Shown: positions 46,282 through 52,749 of the stretch, in pieces
How the letters are laid out: each line of letters begins with the position of its first letter
Position numbering within the stretch: the first letter of the stretch is position 1
From: Emcibacter sp. SYSU 3D8
GTDB lineage: Bacteria; Pseudomonadota; Alphaproteobacteria; SMXS01
DNA length: 64,000 bases
Reading direction: 5' to 3'
NCBI RefSeq assembly: GCF_039655875.1
Contig: NZ_JBBYXK010000001.1
Location: 558,001 to 622,000 of the forward strand
Program-made: the position numbers and the translations under genes
Notes under the pieces: model-generated
Seen by the model: only the letters and a program-made list of their open reading frames with translations
What the model was told of the DNA's origin: nothing
Database searches by the model: none

Positions 46282-46327
46282 CCTCTCACCGCTGCACGCT
46301 ATCGGGGCGGCGAGCGGTTACGGTGGC

Positions 46328-46373
46328 GGTTACGGTGACAGTGCACTCAACTATCCTTCGGCTTCGGGCCCCG
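46328..46373. repeat. 46-bp repeat, copy A (left end of RAYT)
   Basis: This segment, starting GGTTACGGTGACAGTGCACT and running into the last nine codons of the RAYT gene, is repeated exactly at 52367-52412, 6 kb away. Its first 20 bases recur inverted at 47047-47066. Confidence 0.9.
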
Positions 46374-47009
46374 CTTGCCGGGCCTGAGCATGCGATTCGT
46401 CGCTTCTTCCAGCGCCGTGATGAACGCCTCGTCGCCGATCGGCCGGCCGATGGTCTCGGCGCGGCGCAGGCCGTCGAGCAGCGCCGGGTCGCCCTCGTCG
46501 GCGATGAAGTCGGCGAACGGCGAGAAACGCTGCAGCACCGGCGCCAGGGTGGTGATGCCGTCGTCGCGGCCGGACAGGTGCGCGTGCACGCTGGTCCACG
46601 GCCAGCCCTCGGGCCGCGCGACAAGCCGCGCCCGCACCGGATTGAGCGCGACGTACCGCACCGCCGCGCCCAGATGCGCCTCGTCCATGGCGACGGCGCC
46701 GAACCGCCCCTGCCAGAAATGTCCCGTCCGCCGCTCGCGCGCATGGACCGAACCGGCATAGCGCCGGTGCACCGGCGCCAGCGCGCGCCGCAGCCCGTCG
46801 GCGTCGGATGGCACCAGGATCAGGTGAACGTGGTTGGGCATCAGCACCCAGCTCCAGACCTCGACGCCCGCCGCGCGGCACGACGCCGCCAGCAGGTCGC
46901 GGTAGAGCGCATAGTCTTCGTCTCGGAAGAACGTCCGCGCCCGCCCGTTGCCACGCTGGGTGACGTGGTGCGGCAGACCGGGAATGACGATGCGGGCGAG
47001 ACGGGCCAT
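46347..47009 (-). CDS. REP-associated tyrosine transposase (RAYT, Y1_Tnp family)
   Basis: A 220-residue single-strand DNA transposase of the IS200/IS605-related Y1 class. The HUH-like motif is MPNHVHLI (about residues 56-63), and the catalytic Tyr is in RYVALNP (about 117). It begins MARLARIVIPGLPHHVTQRGN, the family N-terminus. These proteins bind and cleave REP palindromes. The last codons (RGPKPKDS) fall inside the 46-bp repeat. It appears intact, with GC similar to neighbours. Confidence 0.9.
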   Translation of the reverse strand: MARLARIVIPGLPHHVTQRGNGRARTFFRDEDYALYRDLLAASCRAAGVEVWSWVLMPNHVHLILVPSDADGLRRALAPVHRRYAGSVHARERRTGHFWQGRFGAVAMDEAHLGAAVRYVALNPVRARLVARPEGWPWTSVHAHLSGRDDGITTLAPVLQRFSPFADFIADEGDPALLDGLRRAETIGRPIGDEAFITALEEATNRMLRPGKRGPKPKDS

Positions 47010-47046
47010 GGCCCACTATCGCCGCATCAGCGGCAGGCGTCAATTA

Positions 47047-47108
47047 AGTGCACTGTCACCGTAACCCTGTCACCGTAACCCACTGTCACCGTAACCTAGA
47101 CCGTAACC
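47047..47108. repeat. Tandem 14-mers on the right of the RAYT gene
   Basis: Three exact copies of CTGTCACCGTAACC (47053-47066, 47067-47080, 47083-47096) and a partial copy (CCGTAACC at 47101-47108). They are the complement of the repeat to the left of the gene. Confidence 0.9.
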
Positions 47109-47119
47109 TAGGCCCTGAA

Positions 47120-47506
47120 CTACTTTTGCCGGACGAGGCGGGCGCACTTAGCCGAGGCGTCCTCGCCAGTCTCGGTATAGCAGAGGTCGAGCACGTCGGG
47201 GCCGGCGAGGGAGCCGGTGAAGACGCCGTCGGCGTCAACGACCACGACGACGCGCCCATCCGGGGTCATGCTGCCGTAGACGTCGGTGGTTTCATAGGCG
47301 CCAGGGGCGCCGTGGGACTTGACGGCCTTGAACGCGGTCTTCTGCTGTTCGCGGACTTCCATGATGAGTTCGTGCCGGTCCCAACCGTCCTGCGCGCCCA
47401 CGCCGGCCTCCTCCCCCTTCCAGGTGCCGATGAGCGAGACCGGGTCGGCGGCGAACACCGGGGCAGCGACGAGCAGGGAGATCGTCGCGATGGTTGCGAT
47501 CTTCAT
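47120..47506 (-). CDS. Small secreted hypothetical protein
   Basis: A 128-residue exported protein with a clear signal peptide (MKIATIATISLLVAAPVFA, cleavage about residue 19). The mature part has LIGTWKGEEAGVGAQDGWDRHELIMEVREQQ, then a beta-rich stretch with TPDGRVVVVVDADGVFTG and a Cys pair (LDLCYTE, AKCARL). A lipocalin-like or DUF-type beta-barrel is suggested by GTWKG and length but not shown. GGAGG sits upstream of the ATG at 47506. Confidence 0.72.
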   Translation of the reverse strand: MKIATIATISLLVAAPVFAADPVSLIGTWKGEEAGVGAQDGWDRHELIMEVREQQKTAFKAVKSHGAPGAYETTDVYGSMTPDGRVVVVVDADGVFTGSLAGPDVLDLCYTETGEDASAKCARLVRQK

Positions 47507-47954
47507 AGCGTAAGCCTCCGATTTGACTAGCGAGCCCCCATTTGGCGCCCTCTGATTCACCAGCCGCCGACGAAAACGATCAGCAAGCGATTGTTCGGCC
47601 GTCAATGAAATGGGTTCGACCGAGATGCTGGACTGCCTCTGACTGGTGATCCGGTTTCAATGCTAGTTCATGGTGGCCTTTGTGCCAATGGTAGCGCTCC
47701 CGATTTAGCTAGTGCGGGTTGCGCAACCAGGCGCCCGGAAATGAAAGTCGCTGGCGCTGGATGCCCCTGCAACAGTCAGCGGCCTCATGCCGCCCATAGC
47801 CGCTAGTCGCCCACGGTGGTCTTGGCCTGCCCCTGATCGTCTGTGGATATCTTATTATGAATGCGTGCCGGTTTCGAGGTCCGCGCCAATGCATATCTGC
47901 GGATTGAGAAGGCCGCTGAGCAGGCGAAAACTTCAACGCTAGGCGGCCGACAAA
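47507..47954. other. Intergenic region without recognised features
   Basis: 448 bases upstream of the secreted protein and downstream of the HNH gene. GC is lower than in the flanks. No gene, tRNA, hairpin or repeat was recognised. Confidence 0.4.
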
Positions 47955-48617
47955 TTATCCGAGCAAGCGTTCGAGTCCATCCCAGACACTGCTTAGGGGC
48001 GAACGCGTCCTAGGATCCACCAAACCCAGTTCATCGATCGTCCACTGCATCCTTCCGTAATTGCACCCTGCGCACGTTATCACGACGTTGCTCAACGAAT
48101 TGTCCCCGCCGCGACAATGAGGAAGTAGGTGATCGTACTGCAACCACATGCATTGAAATGCCGCGTGCTGGCTCGCATTGGAGCCACCCCAGTACGCCTC
48201 CTCAGGGTAAATCCGGGTAAACGCTTTCCTCACCTCACTCCTGACAAGCGGAATGCCGCAGAAGCAGCAGTTGTAGCCGTACGTTCGAAGCACCGCCTTC
48301 TTCTCTGAAGCGTTTGGCATCCGAACCGGGGTTCGCTCACCTTTTCCTAAAAGTGGAGGAGCGTCGGAAAGCTGTCGGTAGCGAATATAGCGCCACTGCT
48401 CTGGATTAGACTTGCTGCTTCCCCACAACGATTCTGTCCAGACTCGGATTGGTGGCAGGTCCGCGCGTTTGATAAACTCGCCCGCCGCGCGAATTTCACC
48501 GGCTAGATGCGCATCGACCGCATGAGTCAAAAGGTCGGCAGCAATGAAAATCTCATCAACGGGCTCTCGCAGACACCTCCGGGGAGCCAGGAAGGTTGCA
48601 TCCTCAGTATCAATCAT
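47955..48617 (-). CDS. HNH endonuclease
   Basis: A 220-residue protein with a C-terminal HNH zinc-finger nuclease. Cys pairs at 117/118-120 (NCCFCG) and 182-185 (CAGC) frame the beta-beta-alpha-metal core YDHLLPHCRGGDNSLSNVVI (Asp162-His163, Asn173, Asn177). The N-terminal 100 residues are not assigned. Base composition is lower in GC than most of the window, and codon use differs from core genes, both signs of transfer. It may be a solitary defence or homing-type nuclease (inference); no methyltransferase is adjacent. Confidence 0.83.
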   Translation of the reverse strand: MIDTEDATFLAPRRCLREPVDEIFIAADLLTHAVDAHLAGEIRAAGEFIKRADLPPIRVWTESLWGSSKSNPEQWRYIRYRQLSDAPPLLGKGERTPVRMPNASEKKAVLRTYGYNCCFCGIPLVRSEVRKAFTRIYPEEAYWGGSNASQHAAFQCMWLQYDHLLPHCRGGDNSLSNVVITCAGCNYGRMQWTIDELGLVDPRTRSPLSSVWDGLERLLG

Positions 48618-49249
48618 GATTTGCCAAATCCGATTTGCTGGAAGGAAACGCAGTGATCATAAATGCAGTACCTTGTGCCGACGACCTGGATTTGCAGAAT
48701 CTCCCGCTAATGTCTGCTGTTGCGGCAGTGGCAGGTTGACCAATATGCCCCTTCAGGGCGCGCAAAAACCGAATAGGGTCGGGGGCAAGACTTGGAAGGT
48801 GGCACTCAGTTTCCAGCAGTGCCGTACCGTTTCAAGCGTTTGGAATTCCCCTCGCATACCACTGGTCAGTTCGAACTGTCCTACATCTGAAAATTCTCAA
48901 GCTCCTGATTTAGCTCGGCAAAATTCTGCGTACTTTTTTGACGAAATACGGGGTGTGCAGAGAATGAGGCCTAGCAGAGAACAGCTCACCCCTACTGGCA
49001 GATCCGCGCAGTACGGACTTACATGGAAAAGTCAGGCTTTCCGCGCCATTGACGGTCCGGCAGAGGGCTCGGCCGAGATAGGTTCTGGGTAGGTATTGGT
49101 AGAGCAGAAGGGACTCACATCGAACATTCTCCAATTGCGCGCGGCAACGGCATACGACCGAAGAACCATCCTCTACCTTCCATTCCCCGCCATCATTCTG
49201 CTCGGCCTACCTCTCGACGTTCCTGGCTGCACGTCAGCAGGCCAAGGGC
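48618..49249. other. Low-GC intergenic region, HNH gene / ccmC relic
   Basis: About 630 bases with stop codons in all frames and no recognised protein. The region reads like decayed sequence. A 74-codon open stretch at 48910-49134 (minus) has no family resemblance and was not called. Confidence 0.4.
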
Positions 49250-49519
49250 CGGAACCACGGCTCGTTGAGAAGTGACCCGAACGTCCTGATTGCGCTTAAA
49301 AGCTGATTGGCGCCGATGGGCGCGCAGTTCTTGGCGGCGATGTCGGCGAAAGGGTGCTTCCAGACGAACCCCATGCCGCTGAAGATCGCCATCAGAACAT
49401 AGGTCGACAGCGCCATCCAAGCCCGCCGGCACATGAATATACATGATGCGGACGGTATCCTTCTGCCGCGCATCCGGCGACGAGCCAACGAGCGCGAGGT
49501 ACAATCCCAAGGCGCGCAA
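49250..49519 (-). pseudogene. ccmC: Frameshifted fragment of a heme exporter permease (CcmC)
   Basis: Two overlapping frames together read like residues ~35-125 of CcmC. The upstream frame gives ALGLYLALVGSSPDARQKD, then TVRIMYIHVPA; an extra G near 49421-49423 shifts the frame, and the second frame continues AWMALSTYVLMAIFSGMGF, VWKHPFADIAAKNCAPIGA and GSLLNEPWF. The native junction would read HVPAAWMA. The WWD heme-handling motif and the rest of the protein are missing. It is a broken fragment and cannot function in cytochrome c maturation. Confidence 0.78.
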
Positions 49520-49577
49520 GTGGAGTCGGATTGGCCAGGCACCGGGAATCTGGCGTACGTGCCTTCCGAGAACAGCA

Positions 49578-49610
49578 AAAGGCTCCCCGGGACGAACCCG
49601 GGGAGCCTTT
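49578..49610 (-). terminator. Intrinsic terminator of the tandem-domain gene
   Basis: A 14-bp perfect stem (AAAGGCTCCCCGGG at 49578-49591, CCCGGGGAGCCTTT at 49597-49610) with a 5-nt loop lies just past the stop of the minus-strand gene. On the minus strand it runs into TTTTGCTG. Confidence 0.85.
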
Positions 49611-49625
49611 CCGAAGCCGTGCTCT

Positions 49626-50810
49626 CTACTTGTGGGCGTAGCTTTCGATAGTCACCTGGCGATCACCGATCGAGCTGCACACCAGCTGGAGCTGGCTGAC
49701 ATTTCGCTCGTCGCCAGGCAGATCGATGCGGTGAAAATCACCCTCGCGCAGACGACCGCGGTCACCGATGTCCAGATCCCGGGTCTTGCCATTACCGAAG
49801 GTGACGTAGACGCGGCTGCAACGGGCATCGCCGTTTACCGCGCGAAGACCCAGCGTGTCAACGCTCCGGCCCTTCCAACCGGTGGAAACCGCTTCCCGAT
49901 CGCGCCTGCCTTCGAAACTGTCGGCGCCGAGGCGCACCCAGCCGTTCATGCGATCTTCATCACGGTAATTGCGGCGACCCTCATGGGCGTAGCTTTCGAT
50001 AGTCACCTGGCGATCGCCGATCGAGCTGCACACCAGCTGGAGCTGGCGGACATTGCGCTCGTCGCCGGGCAGATCAATGCGGTGGAAATCACCTTCGCGC
50101 AGACGGCCACGGTCACCGATGTCCAGATCCTGGGTCTTGCCGTTACCAAAGGTGACGTAGACGCGGCTGCAACGGGCATCACCGTTTACTGCGCGGAGAC
50201 CCAGTGTGTCGACGCTCCTGCCCTTCCAACCGGCGGAAACCGCTTCCCGATCGCGCCTGCCTTCGAAACTGTCGGCGCCGAGGCGCACCCAGCCGTTCAT
50301 GCGATCTTCATCACGGTAATTGTGGCGACCATCACTGCGGCCATCTTGGCGATCATGTCCGCGGTCTGCCGTTACGGCGACGCCGAACAGGCTCGCCCAG
50401 GCCGGATTCCTTTGCCAGATATCGCTGAAACTACCCAGATCGGCCGCGATGTTGATGCGGGCATCACGCCGGCCTTCGGAGCGGCAGCGAAAGCCGAGCT
50501 TGCGGATCTGGCGCTCCTTGCCAGGGAGATCCACGGCGGTTGCGGCACCCTTGCGGATGCGCCCCTCGAATATCTGTCGCGTCTTGCCGTTGTTGAAAGT
50601 CGCGGTAACGGACTTGCAGATCACATCGTTACCCGATGCGGCCAATCTCAGCTTCTCGATCGGGCCGCCGAAATTGCCGTATTGCCGCTCGTGATCGCCG
50701 CCTCTATCGAAGTCGACGCTGCCGATGTCGCGCCATGCCACCTGCGCCGTCGACGGCCACGCCGACAGTGCCACGAAAGTCAATGCCGCGAGAGCTCCCA
50801 CTTTGATCAT
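49626..50810 (-). CDS. Secreted protein with three beta-domains, two from a recent tandem duplication
   Basis: A 394-residue exported protein with a signal peptide (cleavage near STAQ-VAW, about residue 23). Domain 1 (~25-125) is a diverged copy: WRDIGSVDFDRGGDHERQYG, FNNGKTRQIF, and DLPGKERQIRKLGF. After a linker (~126-158) come two nearly identical 117-residue repeats (~159-275 and ~276-392), each with GWVRLGADSFEGRRDREAVS, VYVTFGNGKT and DLPGDERNV. The W-x-LG...G-NGK...DLPG-x-R pattern recalls DUF2541-type domains (tentative). Each domain has a Cys pair (ARCSR, LVCSS). The start at 50810 gives the signal peptide. Function unknown; an extracellular or periplasmic binding role is a guess. 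Confidence 0.8.
   Translation of the reverse strand: MIKVGALAALTFVALSAWPSTAQVAWRDIGSVDFDRGGDHERQYGNFGGPIEKLRLAASGNDVICKSVTATFNNGKTRQIFEGRIRKGAATAVDLPGKERQIRKLGFRCRSEGRRDARINIAADLGSFSDIWQRNPAWASLFGVAVTADRGHDRQDGRSDGRHNYRDEDRMNGWVRLGADSFEGRRDREAVSAGWKGRSVDTLGLRAVNGDARCSRVYVTFGNGKTQDLDIGDRGRLREGDFHRIDLPGDERNVRQLQLVCSSIGDRQVTIESYAHEGRRNYRDEDRMNGWVRLGADSFEGRRDREAVSTGWKGRSVDTLGLRAVNGDARCSRVYVTFGNGKTRDLDIGDRGRLREGDFHRIDLPGDERNVSQLQLVCSSIGDRQVTIESYAHK
49634..50335. repeat. 351-bp in-frame tandem direct repeat
   Basis: Copies at 49634-49984 and 49985-50335 differ at about 20 positions by eye (~94% identity). The unit is exactly 117 codons, so it preserves the reading frame. Only about four residues differ between the encoded copies. 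Confidence 0.92.
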
Positions 50811-51437
50811 GTAACCATCCAATCCTTGATTTGCGTTCTCTGGTCGCCAGGGCCGGACTACCAGGCGGGACCACGGTTCAGCCGAGAACTGCCTTGGTGT
50901 TGCCTTAACGTTGACTAGGTCTTGGCGGTTCCACGGCAAATCACGGCTGCGCGCCACCGTGCCTGTGTGGCGGTCTGCAGAAGCACATTAGGGTGGCAAT
51001 CGTTACTCGAGGGCCAGACGGATCACTGCGGGGGAGGCAAACAGTGCGAAAGGATCAAGCGACAGACGATCGAACACCGGCGCTTGCAGCACCGCAAGCT
51101 CGCCGCCTAACATCAACCCCAGACGAGGCCAATCCTCCGCTAATCCAAGCCGAGATCTACGCCAAATGTTGTGACGACGGACACCGTCGGTTACCGGATC
51201 AACGAGACATCCGAAAATGTAACGCTTGGGGCAGAGGATGCCTTGGAGGCCGCCAAGTTCGTGAAATCCAAGCATGCAAATGCTTCGATCACGTATTCCC
51301 GCGCCGCCAATTCAGACGAGCGCGGACACGAGGATGTCACGGCATCTGGTCCGCGAGTGTCGGCCGTGAACGCAGCAAAGCCCCGCCAGATTGCTCCGAC
51401 GGGCCTGATTGAGTGACGCTTCTACTATGAGGTGGAT
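50811..51437. other. Intergenic region with one doubtful small frame
   Basis: About 627 bases between two minus-strand secreted-protein genes. A GTG-started frame at 51171-51416 (+, 81 codons, DALEAAKFVKSKHANASI) is the only protein-like stretch; it has no family and no good ribosome binding site, so it is not called as a gene. Nothing else was recognised. Confidence 0.4.
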
Positions 51438-51767
51438 TTACCAGACGTGGACGATGCGCCGGCTGCTGCGTTCAACAACCGTCGGCGTGCCGTTGATGAT
51501 CGTGTAGCTGTAGTGATCGGGGTTTTCCACCTTCATGGTTTCCGGCAGCGGATAGACCGTTACCGTACCCGGTAGTACCACGCCGATTTCCGCATTCAGC
51601 GCGGGATCGTTGATCGGAGCATAGTTTTTGGTCGTCGAATATTCTTTGATCACTGTCCCGTCGTCCGCGGTCCAAGTGGTTGTGGTTGTGGTCGACGATT
51701 CTGCGAAAGCAACGCCAGCGGTGAGTAGTGCTGACGCGGTAACGATTGAAAAAAGGATCTTCTTCAT
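51438..51767 (-). CDS. Secreted DUF1236-like protein
   Basis: A 109-residue protein with a signal peptide (MKKILFSIVTASALLTAGVAFA) and a C-terminal segment matching DUF1236: IGVVLPGTVTVYPLPETM, then YSYTIINGTPTVVERSSRRIVHVW. The family is common in alphaproteobacteria and of unknown function. GGAG precedes the ATG at 51767. A Thr-rich stretch (STTTTTTWT) follows the signal peptide. Confidence 0.8.
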   Translation of the reverse strand: MKKILFSIVTASALLTAGVAFAESSTTTTTTWTADDGTVIKEYSTTKNYAPINDPALNAEIGVVLPGTVTVYPLPETMKVENPDHYSYTIINGTPTVVERSSRRIVHVW

Positions 51768-52044
51768 AAGTGACTCCATCGTGCCGGATTAAAGGGTTCT
51801 TCCTTAGCCGGCGGAGCGGCAACGCCGATTCAGATCTCGACCTGAACGAATCCTGTGTGCTGGAAGTTCCATGAAGGAGACGCCCAACGGCCCGGACGAA
51901 CCTCATTTTCCGAGGAACCAGCCCGGCACGCGCCGCAAGTCCAACTTGGCAGGCCAGGCGCCGTGCGACATCTCACAGAGGTCGTTGCCAAGGCGGAACC
52001 AAGTCCCCGCATGGATGTTCATTAACAAATGCAGGGAGTCGATA

Positions 52045-52203
52045 ATGATCGAAATGAAGCGGCGAGCACGGCGCAGTTCCAGCGTTTCAGGCGGGCAGAT
52101 TCCGGGTGCGCAGGGCCGTCGCACGTACCCGATCGTCTTATCGATCGTTGGCCTGCTTGGGATTTTGTGGGTGAGTGGCGTGCTTTCCGCGTGGTTCGGC
52201 TAA
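52045..52203 (+). CDS. Small single-span membrane protein
   Basis: A 52-residue protein: a basic N-terminus (MIEMKRRARRSSS) and one C-terminal hydrophobic span (YPIVLSIVGLLGILWVSGVL). GGGAG at 52034-52038 with 6-nt spacing supports the ATG at 52045. The same frame is open upstream to 51871 but with no hydrophobic or family features. No homologue was recognised; short length makes coding status uncertain. Confidence 0.5.
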   Translation: MIEMKRRARRSSSVSGGQIPGAQGRRTYPIVLSIVGLLGILWVSGVLSAWFG

Positions 52204-52340
52204 TGGCACCTTCGGGCATCTGAATCTTCCTCCCCACTGCTCGCCAACAAAGCGACGACAGCAACTTTCTTTCACGCAAATGGAAGAACCAATCCTGACG
52301 CCGGACAGTATTGGCATGCCAGTGGCTACCGACTCAGATG

Positions 52341-52432
52341 GGTTACGGTGACAGGGTTACGGATAGGGTTACGGTGACAGTGCACTCAACTATCCTTCGG
52401 CTTCGGGCCCCGGATTAAGGTGACAGTTCACT
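52341..52432. repeat. RAYT-type repeats, second locus (includes 46-bp copy B)
   Basis: GGTTACGGTGACAG occurs at 52341-52354 and 52367-52380, with a partial copy (GGTTACGGAT) at 52355-52364 and a variant GGTGACAGTTCACT at 52419-52432. The span 52367-52412 is identical to 46328-46373. Confidence 0.9.
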
Positions 52433-52588
52433 AAATATCCCATTCACCGCCGTACCGTACCTGTGCGCGGCCGCGCCGATCAGGTCCAGTTGCCGGTAGT
52501 CACAGAAGCACACGTGCTCGCGCCGGCTTTTCCGCTGCGTCACGTGATGCGACAGCCCGGGAACCCCCAACCGCGCCAATCTCCCCAT
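52385..52588 (-). pseudogene. Decayed RAYT transposase with internal deletion
   Basis: From ATG at 52588 the minus strand reads MGRLARLGVPGLSHHVTQRK, matching the N-terminus of the intact RAYT at 47.0 kb (MARLARIVIPGLPHHVTQRG). It then loses similarity and stops after 57 codons at 52415. The last nine codons of a RAYT (RGPKPKDS-stop) follow at 52386-52412. The central catalytic part, including the NHVH motif and the Tyr, is gone. A remnant of the repeat (GTCACCGTAA at 52647-52656) lies on the far side. Confidence 0.82.
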
Positions 52589-52749
52589 AGTGCGCCTCCC
52601 CTGTCAGACCGGGAGAGGATGGCAGACAGGAGGTGGCAAGCAAACCGTCACCGTAATGCATCCGCCAGCCCACAAACGGGCGACACGGCATCGCCGCCGA
52701 TGTCTCCGGGACAAACGGTACCGATCCGCAAAAGTCGCAAAAGGGATTT

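Follow-up and report, generated by a model that had tools for sequence, protein, structure and literature searches.

A putative secreted DUF2541-like protein that appears to have grown from two domains to three, encoded on a segment with a ccm-locus ancestry

A gene in the window, the whole 64,000-nucleotide stretch of the Emcibacter sp. SYSU 3D8 genome that was analysed, encodes a putative secreted protein that appears to have gone from two domains to three after its C-terminal unit was duplicated in tandem and in frame, a change supported by comparison with its relatives. The account that we tentatively prefer is that a small jelly-roll protein grew in this way on a segment derived from a ccm locus, and that the segment was most likely imported from a sister lineage. 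The domain duplication is as such an ordinary one, within a family that is still uncharacterised, and selection on both copies is right if put in the past tense. It provides a clean small case of domain gain by tandem duplication in which both copies were kept under constraint. What is new here is the paralogue found between ccmB and ccmC in the same genome, together with the ccmC relic that lies behind the window gene.

The window gene runs on the minus strand from an ATG at 50810 to a TAG at 49626 and comprises 394 codons for 394 amino acids (Table 1). Its last 234 codons consist of two tandem units, A and B, of 117 codons each, and the N-terminal domain that precedes them is 35% identical to unit B and has the same two cysteines; the third, diverged copy that the sequence-only reading placed at the N-terminus is therefore real. 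Across 11 aligned domains, the invariant columns include the two cysteines and F52, N54 and G55 (unit numbering), and the cysteines of each unit would be paired as a disulfide. The length of the linker before unit A differs between the aligned relatives. The probable signal peptide was called by eye from the hydrophobic N-terminus and the aligned relatives, and it suggests a secreted protein, either periplasmic or extracellular. The terminator-like hairpin 3' of the gene has a folding energy of -35.8 kcal/mol (z -6.5), and that of the paralogue -31.7 kcal/mol (z -6.2). An antisense gene was considered and rejected: an open frame of 491 codons runs on the opposite strand (49443-50918), and one of 430 in the paralogue, and both the homologues and the silent pattern of change fit the minus-strand frame.

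Table 1. Coordinates of the window gene, its parts and the loci compared with it (window positions unless a locus handle is given)
Feature	Position	Strand	Basis
ccmC relic, fragment from within the haem exporter gene	49309..49514	minus	206 bp, 88% DNA identity to the genome's own ccmC
Gene for three-domain DUF2541-like, putatively secreted protein	49626..50810	minus	Open frame; homologues in 5 other genus genomes; Pfam DUF2541
Probable signal peptide, residues 1-22	50745..50810	minus	Hydrophobic N-terminus, here and in aligned relatives; pLDDT <50
N-terminal domain, old diverged copy	50436..50744	minus	35% identity to unit B, common Cys pair; strands E26-34 to E117-124
Low-confidence linker, N-terminal domain to unit A	50295..50381	minus	pLDDT <50 at residues 144-169
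Unit A, codons 161-277	49980..50330	minus	Tandem 351-bp unit
Unit B, codons 278-394	49629..49979	minus	Tandem 351-bp unit; single-domain model 49629-49952, pLDDT 89.6
Upstream region, common to ccm-locus paralogue	50811..50938	minus	Sequence match to paralogue
Terminator-like hairpin 3' of gene, common to ccm-locus paralogue	49570..49620	minus	Folding energy
Whole segment common to own ccmB-ccmC interval (contig C3 5625-7041)	49309..50938		Three blastn pieces, 81-88% identity
ccmB-ccmC gap loci compared	L003:5577-6706; L028:3884-5249; L029:8194-9797; L030:4119-4171; L024:2226-2327		

How many domains did the ancestral protein have? The gene is present in six of the seven genomes of the genus, the present genome (G000) counted: there are two copies here and two in G001, one each in G002, G003 and G004, one in G005 that is cut by a contig end, and none in G006. 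All six of the other complete genes in the genus, the paralogue in the present genome included, encode two domains. In a sample of the class, 6 of 385 genomes gave a match, three of them outside the genus; the protein of one of these (G148) has two domains, and the other two matches lie in open frames of at most 218 codons. No other three-domain gene was found in the six other genomes of the genus (the G005 copy being cut by the contig end) or in the six matching class genomes of the 385, and within the genus and the sampled class genomes the third domain is thus seen in the window gene alone. The suggestion that the protein grew stepwise is supported by this distribution, since the relatives examined have two domains and the window gene three. 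In G001 the two copies are whole two-domain genes in tandem (L016:4963-6899), which is another route of copy gain. In all five other gene-bearing genomes, a gene that we named aldo-keto reductase-like by reading its sequence lies about 130-230 bp from the DUF2541 gene; in the present genome this reductase is on contig C1, near 1,064,000, with no DUF2541 gene beside it.

The tandem pair had been described as an exact 117-codon duplication at 49634-50335, which is the pair of Table 1 about 5 bases out of register. Only the 351-bp period is "exact"; in sequence, 22 of the 351 bases and 5 of the 117 residues are different between the units, close to the earlier estimate of about 20 bases and about four residues. 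A repeat finder recovered a core of 300 bp, 94% identical between the copies and spaced at 351, and 19 of the 22 base differences are transitions. Counted codon by codon, 17 differences are synonymous and 5 non-synonymous (dS 0.237, dN 0.019, NG86), a dN/dS ratio of 0.08 that is not near 1. Sets of 22 random coding changes held a mean of 15 replacements, and none of 20,000 draws held five or fewer. When the contig C3 paralogue served as outgroup to polarise the changes (109 aligned codons), 8 silent and 2 replacement changes fell to unit A and the same numbers to unit B, with one site undecided. This ratio and the even split of the polarised changes indicate purifying selection on A and B since the duplication, and support the view that both copies were alike under constraint. 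The claim that selection kept both domains is upheld to that extent, although that selection may have acted elsewhere than at the present position, because the broken ccmC piece next to the gene has also diverged mostly silently. A low dN/dS at a relocated gene is not the same as selection at its present place, the broken passenger ccmC having a similar ratio of 0.083, and the low value between A and B may reflect the former locus. Codons 9-32 of the units show no difference between A and B in 72 bases, with 8 of 72 between each unit and the paralogue; elsewhere the counts are 21 of 255 (A against B) and 45 of 255 (against the paralogue). This clustering of identity has a Fisher P of 0.006 for a region picked after the data had been seen. 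Partial gene conversion between A and B is possible, in which case the duplication may be older than dS suggests.

Where did the segment come from? The two-domain paralogue lies on contig C3 (5754-6599) and is 82% identical to the window gene in DNA and 87% in protein over the common part. It has a similar upstream region and terminator hairpin; unlike the window gene, it lacks the tandem duplication and sits between ccmB and ccmC. The shared segment covers about 1.4 kb on C3, from just past ccmB into ccmC, the upstream region and hairpin included. Because the paralogue sits at ccmB-ccmC and a broken ccmC trails the window gene, the segment, as read from these matches, descends from a ccm locus. 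The ccmC relic has a broken frame and lacks both the start and the later two thirds of the gene; tblastn detects it in two frames, reaching more weakly to 49258-49555 (residues 31-128 of 255). A setting among relics had been noted before, and the relics are now partly identified, one of them as ccmC; what had been missed is the relocated, ccm-linked origin with the truncated ccmC attached. Four congeners yielded a readable gap between ccmB and ccmC. In G001 and G003 this spans some 50-100 bp and has no insert; in G004 and G006 it measures about 1.4 and 1.6 kb and carries other genes. In G002 and G005 no ccmC was found. The gap contains the DUF2541 gene in the present genome, a gene with a weak bacterial SH3 match below the Pfam cut-off in G004, and a SUKH-family piece with other frames in G006, and it has the look of a site where accessory genes settle.

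The relic itself bears on how the segment moved. Over 67 codons it differs from the genome's own ccmC with dS 0.48 and dN 0.04 (the ratio of 0.083 given above), and over the same codons the own ccmC differs from that of G006 with dS 0.51 and from that of G004 with dS 0.30. Changes were polarised with G006 and G004 as references where both agree, giving 10 silent and 3 replacement changes on the relic branch and 3 silent and 2 replacement changes on the branch of the own ccmC. Small as these counts are (13 polarised changes in 67 codons), the 10 to 3 split has a binomial P of 0.0007 when replacements are taken as 70% of neutral changes, and of 0.008 when they are taken as 60%. Since a gene dead since it was copied would not be expected to diverge mostly silently, most of the relic's divergence was probably acquired while that ccmC still functioned. 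A simple account of this pattern would be import from a sister lineage, which is also favoured because dS between the window gene and the paralogue (0.82-0.83) exceeds dS between the present genome and its congeners in mnmA (0.38-0.61, five congeners), ccmC (0.24-0.74, four) and ccmB (0.27-0.50, four). Against this, the DUF2541 gene is fast-evolving in itself, with dS of 0.88-1.20 between the paralogue and the genes of G002, G003 and G004; a dS of 0.82 is not extreme for such a gene, and NG86 values of about 0.8 are close to saturation. Site sharing also runs against import, 7 sites tying the relic to the own ccmC and 5 tying it to G006 and G004, again with small counts, and the six other genus genomes and the other matching class genomes, having no three-domain gene, put no donor in hand.

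Those 7 sites are what might be expected had the segment been duplicated within its own genome, with a second ccm copy that worked for a long time and then collapsed to the DUF2541 gene and a piece of ccmC. We regard this as possible and as somewhat less probable than import. The donor arrangement is present in the same genome, but a second working ccmC is required where one complete ccmC was found, and the distance between the relic and the own ccmC is about that at which the ccmC of another species, G006, stands. If import is preferred, the duplication of the C-terminal unit would have taken place in a working copy, and the segment, from a sister lineage in which the gene lay in the ccm locus as well, would have been placed in a variable strip beside tRNA-Met, ccmC being broken around the time of that placement. 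The product would be exported and its cysteines paired.

The strip (47065-52697) lies between a Y1-type transposase gene, by our reading a RAYT, and tRNA-Met, and holds the relocated segment. It is absent in G002 and G003, where its flanks are about 1.1 and 0.5 kb apart. It includes short stretches that resemble, at 74-91% identity, sites on contigs C1, C4, C5, C6 and C7, an HNH endonuclease-like gene (47955-48617) whose best Pfam match is barely above the cut-off, and a DUF1236 gene (51438-51779) to which a relative on contig C4 is 74% identical. The transposase gene (46347-47009) is flanked by a repeat of about 58 bp (within 46310-47108), which recurs at 52355-52412 near tRNA-Met; two of its copies are shorter, and all four sites found in the genome fall within about 6 kb. 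A guessed pattern for the repeats around the transposase gene gave no match. Synteny breaks 3' of tRNA-Met in G001-G004. A plasmid origin was rejected, with no match in 72,556 plasmid records at E 1e-5.

In such a neighbourhood the window gene could itself be turning into another relic, its low dN/dS inherited from the former locus. The adjoining ccmC piece is broken, the strip has further short stretches similar to sequence elsewhere in the genome, and third-position GC is lower in the window gene (0.71) than in the paralogue (0.80). We nevertheless consider present drift unlikely, the 394-codon frame being intact, the start and terminator hairpin kept, and both copies constrained since the tandem duplication. 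That the repeat is an artefact of assembly is highly improbable, since, although tandem repeats can be mis-assembled and the assembled sequence alone was examined, 22 scattered differences and a longest identical run of 88 bases argue against one sequence assembled twice.

The window protein as a whole scores 38 bits against Pfam DUF2541 (PF10807; curated cut-off 28.2), which makes it a distant DUF2541 protein by profile score. Each of the seven genus proteins in the alignment matches DUF2541 at E <=0.01; the score accumulates along the whole protein, and single domains match weakly (9 of 11 at E 0.1). In a six-frame DUF2541 search of 10 genomes, none passed the cut-off, the sole match being in G002 at E 0.001 and the present genome being missed. 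No carbohydrate-binding module (CBM) family was found in Pfam at E 1 for the window protein or at E 0.1 for the 11 single domains, a search that distant members can escape; NCBIfam at E 0.1 gave no match for two proteins. A sequence search for solved relatives listed seven chains at E <=1, the best being CnrR (E 0.021, profile positions 77-148), and these were not accepted as homology. Among the papers listed for DUF2541, UPF0412 or YaaI, none deals, to judge by title and opening of the abstract, with the protein's function.

To what fold do the units belong? The model of the whole protein (mean pLDDT 73.7, pTM 0.45) does not allow the mutual placement of the domains to be read. The single-unit model (pTM 0.82) is an eight-strand sandwich, and a unit is predicted to be a jelly-roll β-sandwich, the fold of AlgX-type and CBM32/29/22-like carbohydrate-binding modules. 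Its best structural match is to residues 348-461 of AlgX (4knc_B; Z 8.9, rmsd 2.9, 101 aligned), followed by a putative fucosidase and an Akkermansia enzyme, with several CBM32, CBM29 and other sugar-binding modules lower among the 50 matches listed. AlgX also headed the matches to the model of the whole protein (Z 8.8, rmsd 2.7, 101 aligned). Foldseek with the single unit gave two matches at E <=0.001, the prophage protein YomS and AlgX; with the whole protein it gave Cry toxins and other multi-sandwich chains, at rmsd >=13 Å in all 50 rows listed, which is not meaningful. Z scores of 7-9 are usual among jelly rolls, a common fold that does not reveal function, and the PRD1 capsid protein (Z 7.9) and furin (Z 7.4) score nearly as high here. 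From the models, the units are probably modules that bind glycans, each stabilised by a disulfide, and sugar binding is to be taken as a lead, not a result, because capsid proteins and furin come within 1-2 Z units of the top match. An extra domain could then make the protein bind a glycan of the cell envelope or of an exopolymer with greater avidity, and this reading, if true, would point to a function for DUF2541-type domains. More broadly, and improbably in our judgement, these could form an unrecognised glycan-binding secreted family that gains domains and passes from species to species within the genus, with accessory genes settling in the ccmB-ccmC gap and one member having moved here along with a piece of the host operon.

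Two known systems invite comparison. The window protein lies over the DUF2541 family cut-off, whereas unit B by itself (14.4 bits) falls under it; the E. coli member of the family is YaaI, a single-domain protein. The C-terminal module of AlgX (4knc), a carbohydrate-binding module, has the same jelly-roll arrangement as the unit but shares only 8% identity with it. AlgX also carries an alginate acetyltransferase domain, unlike the window protein, for which Pfam at E 1 shows no match to a family of enzymes.
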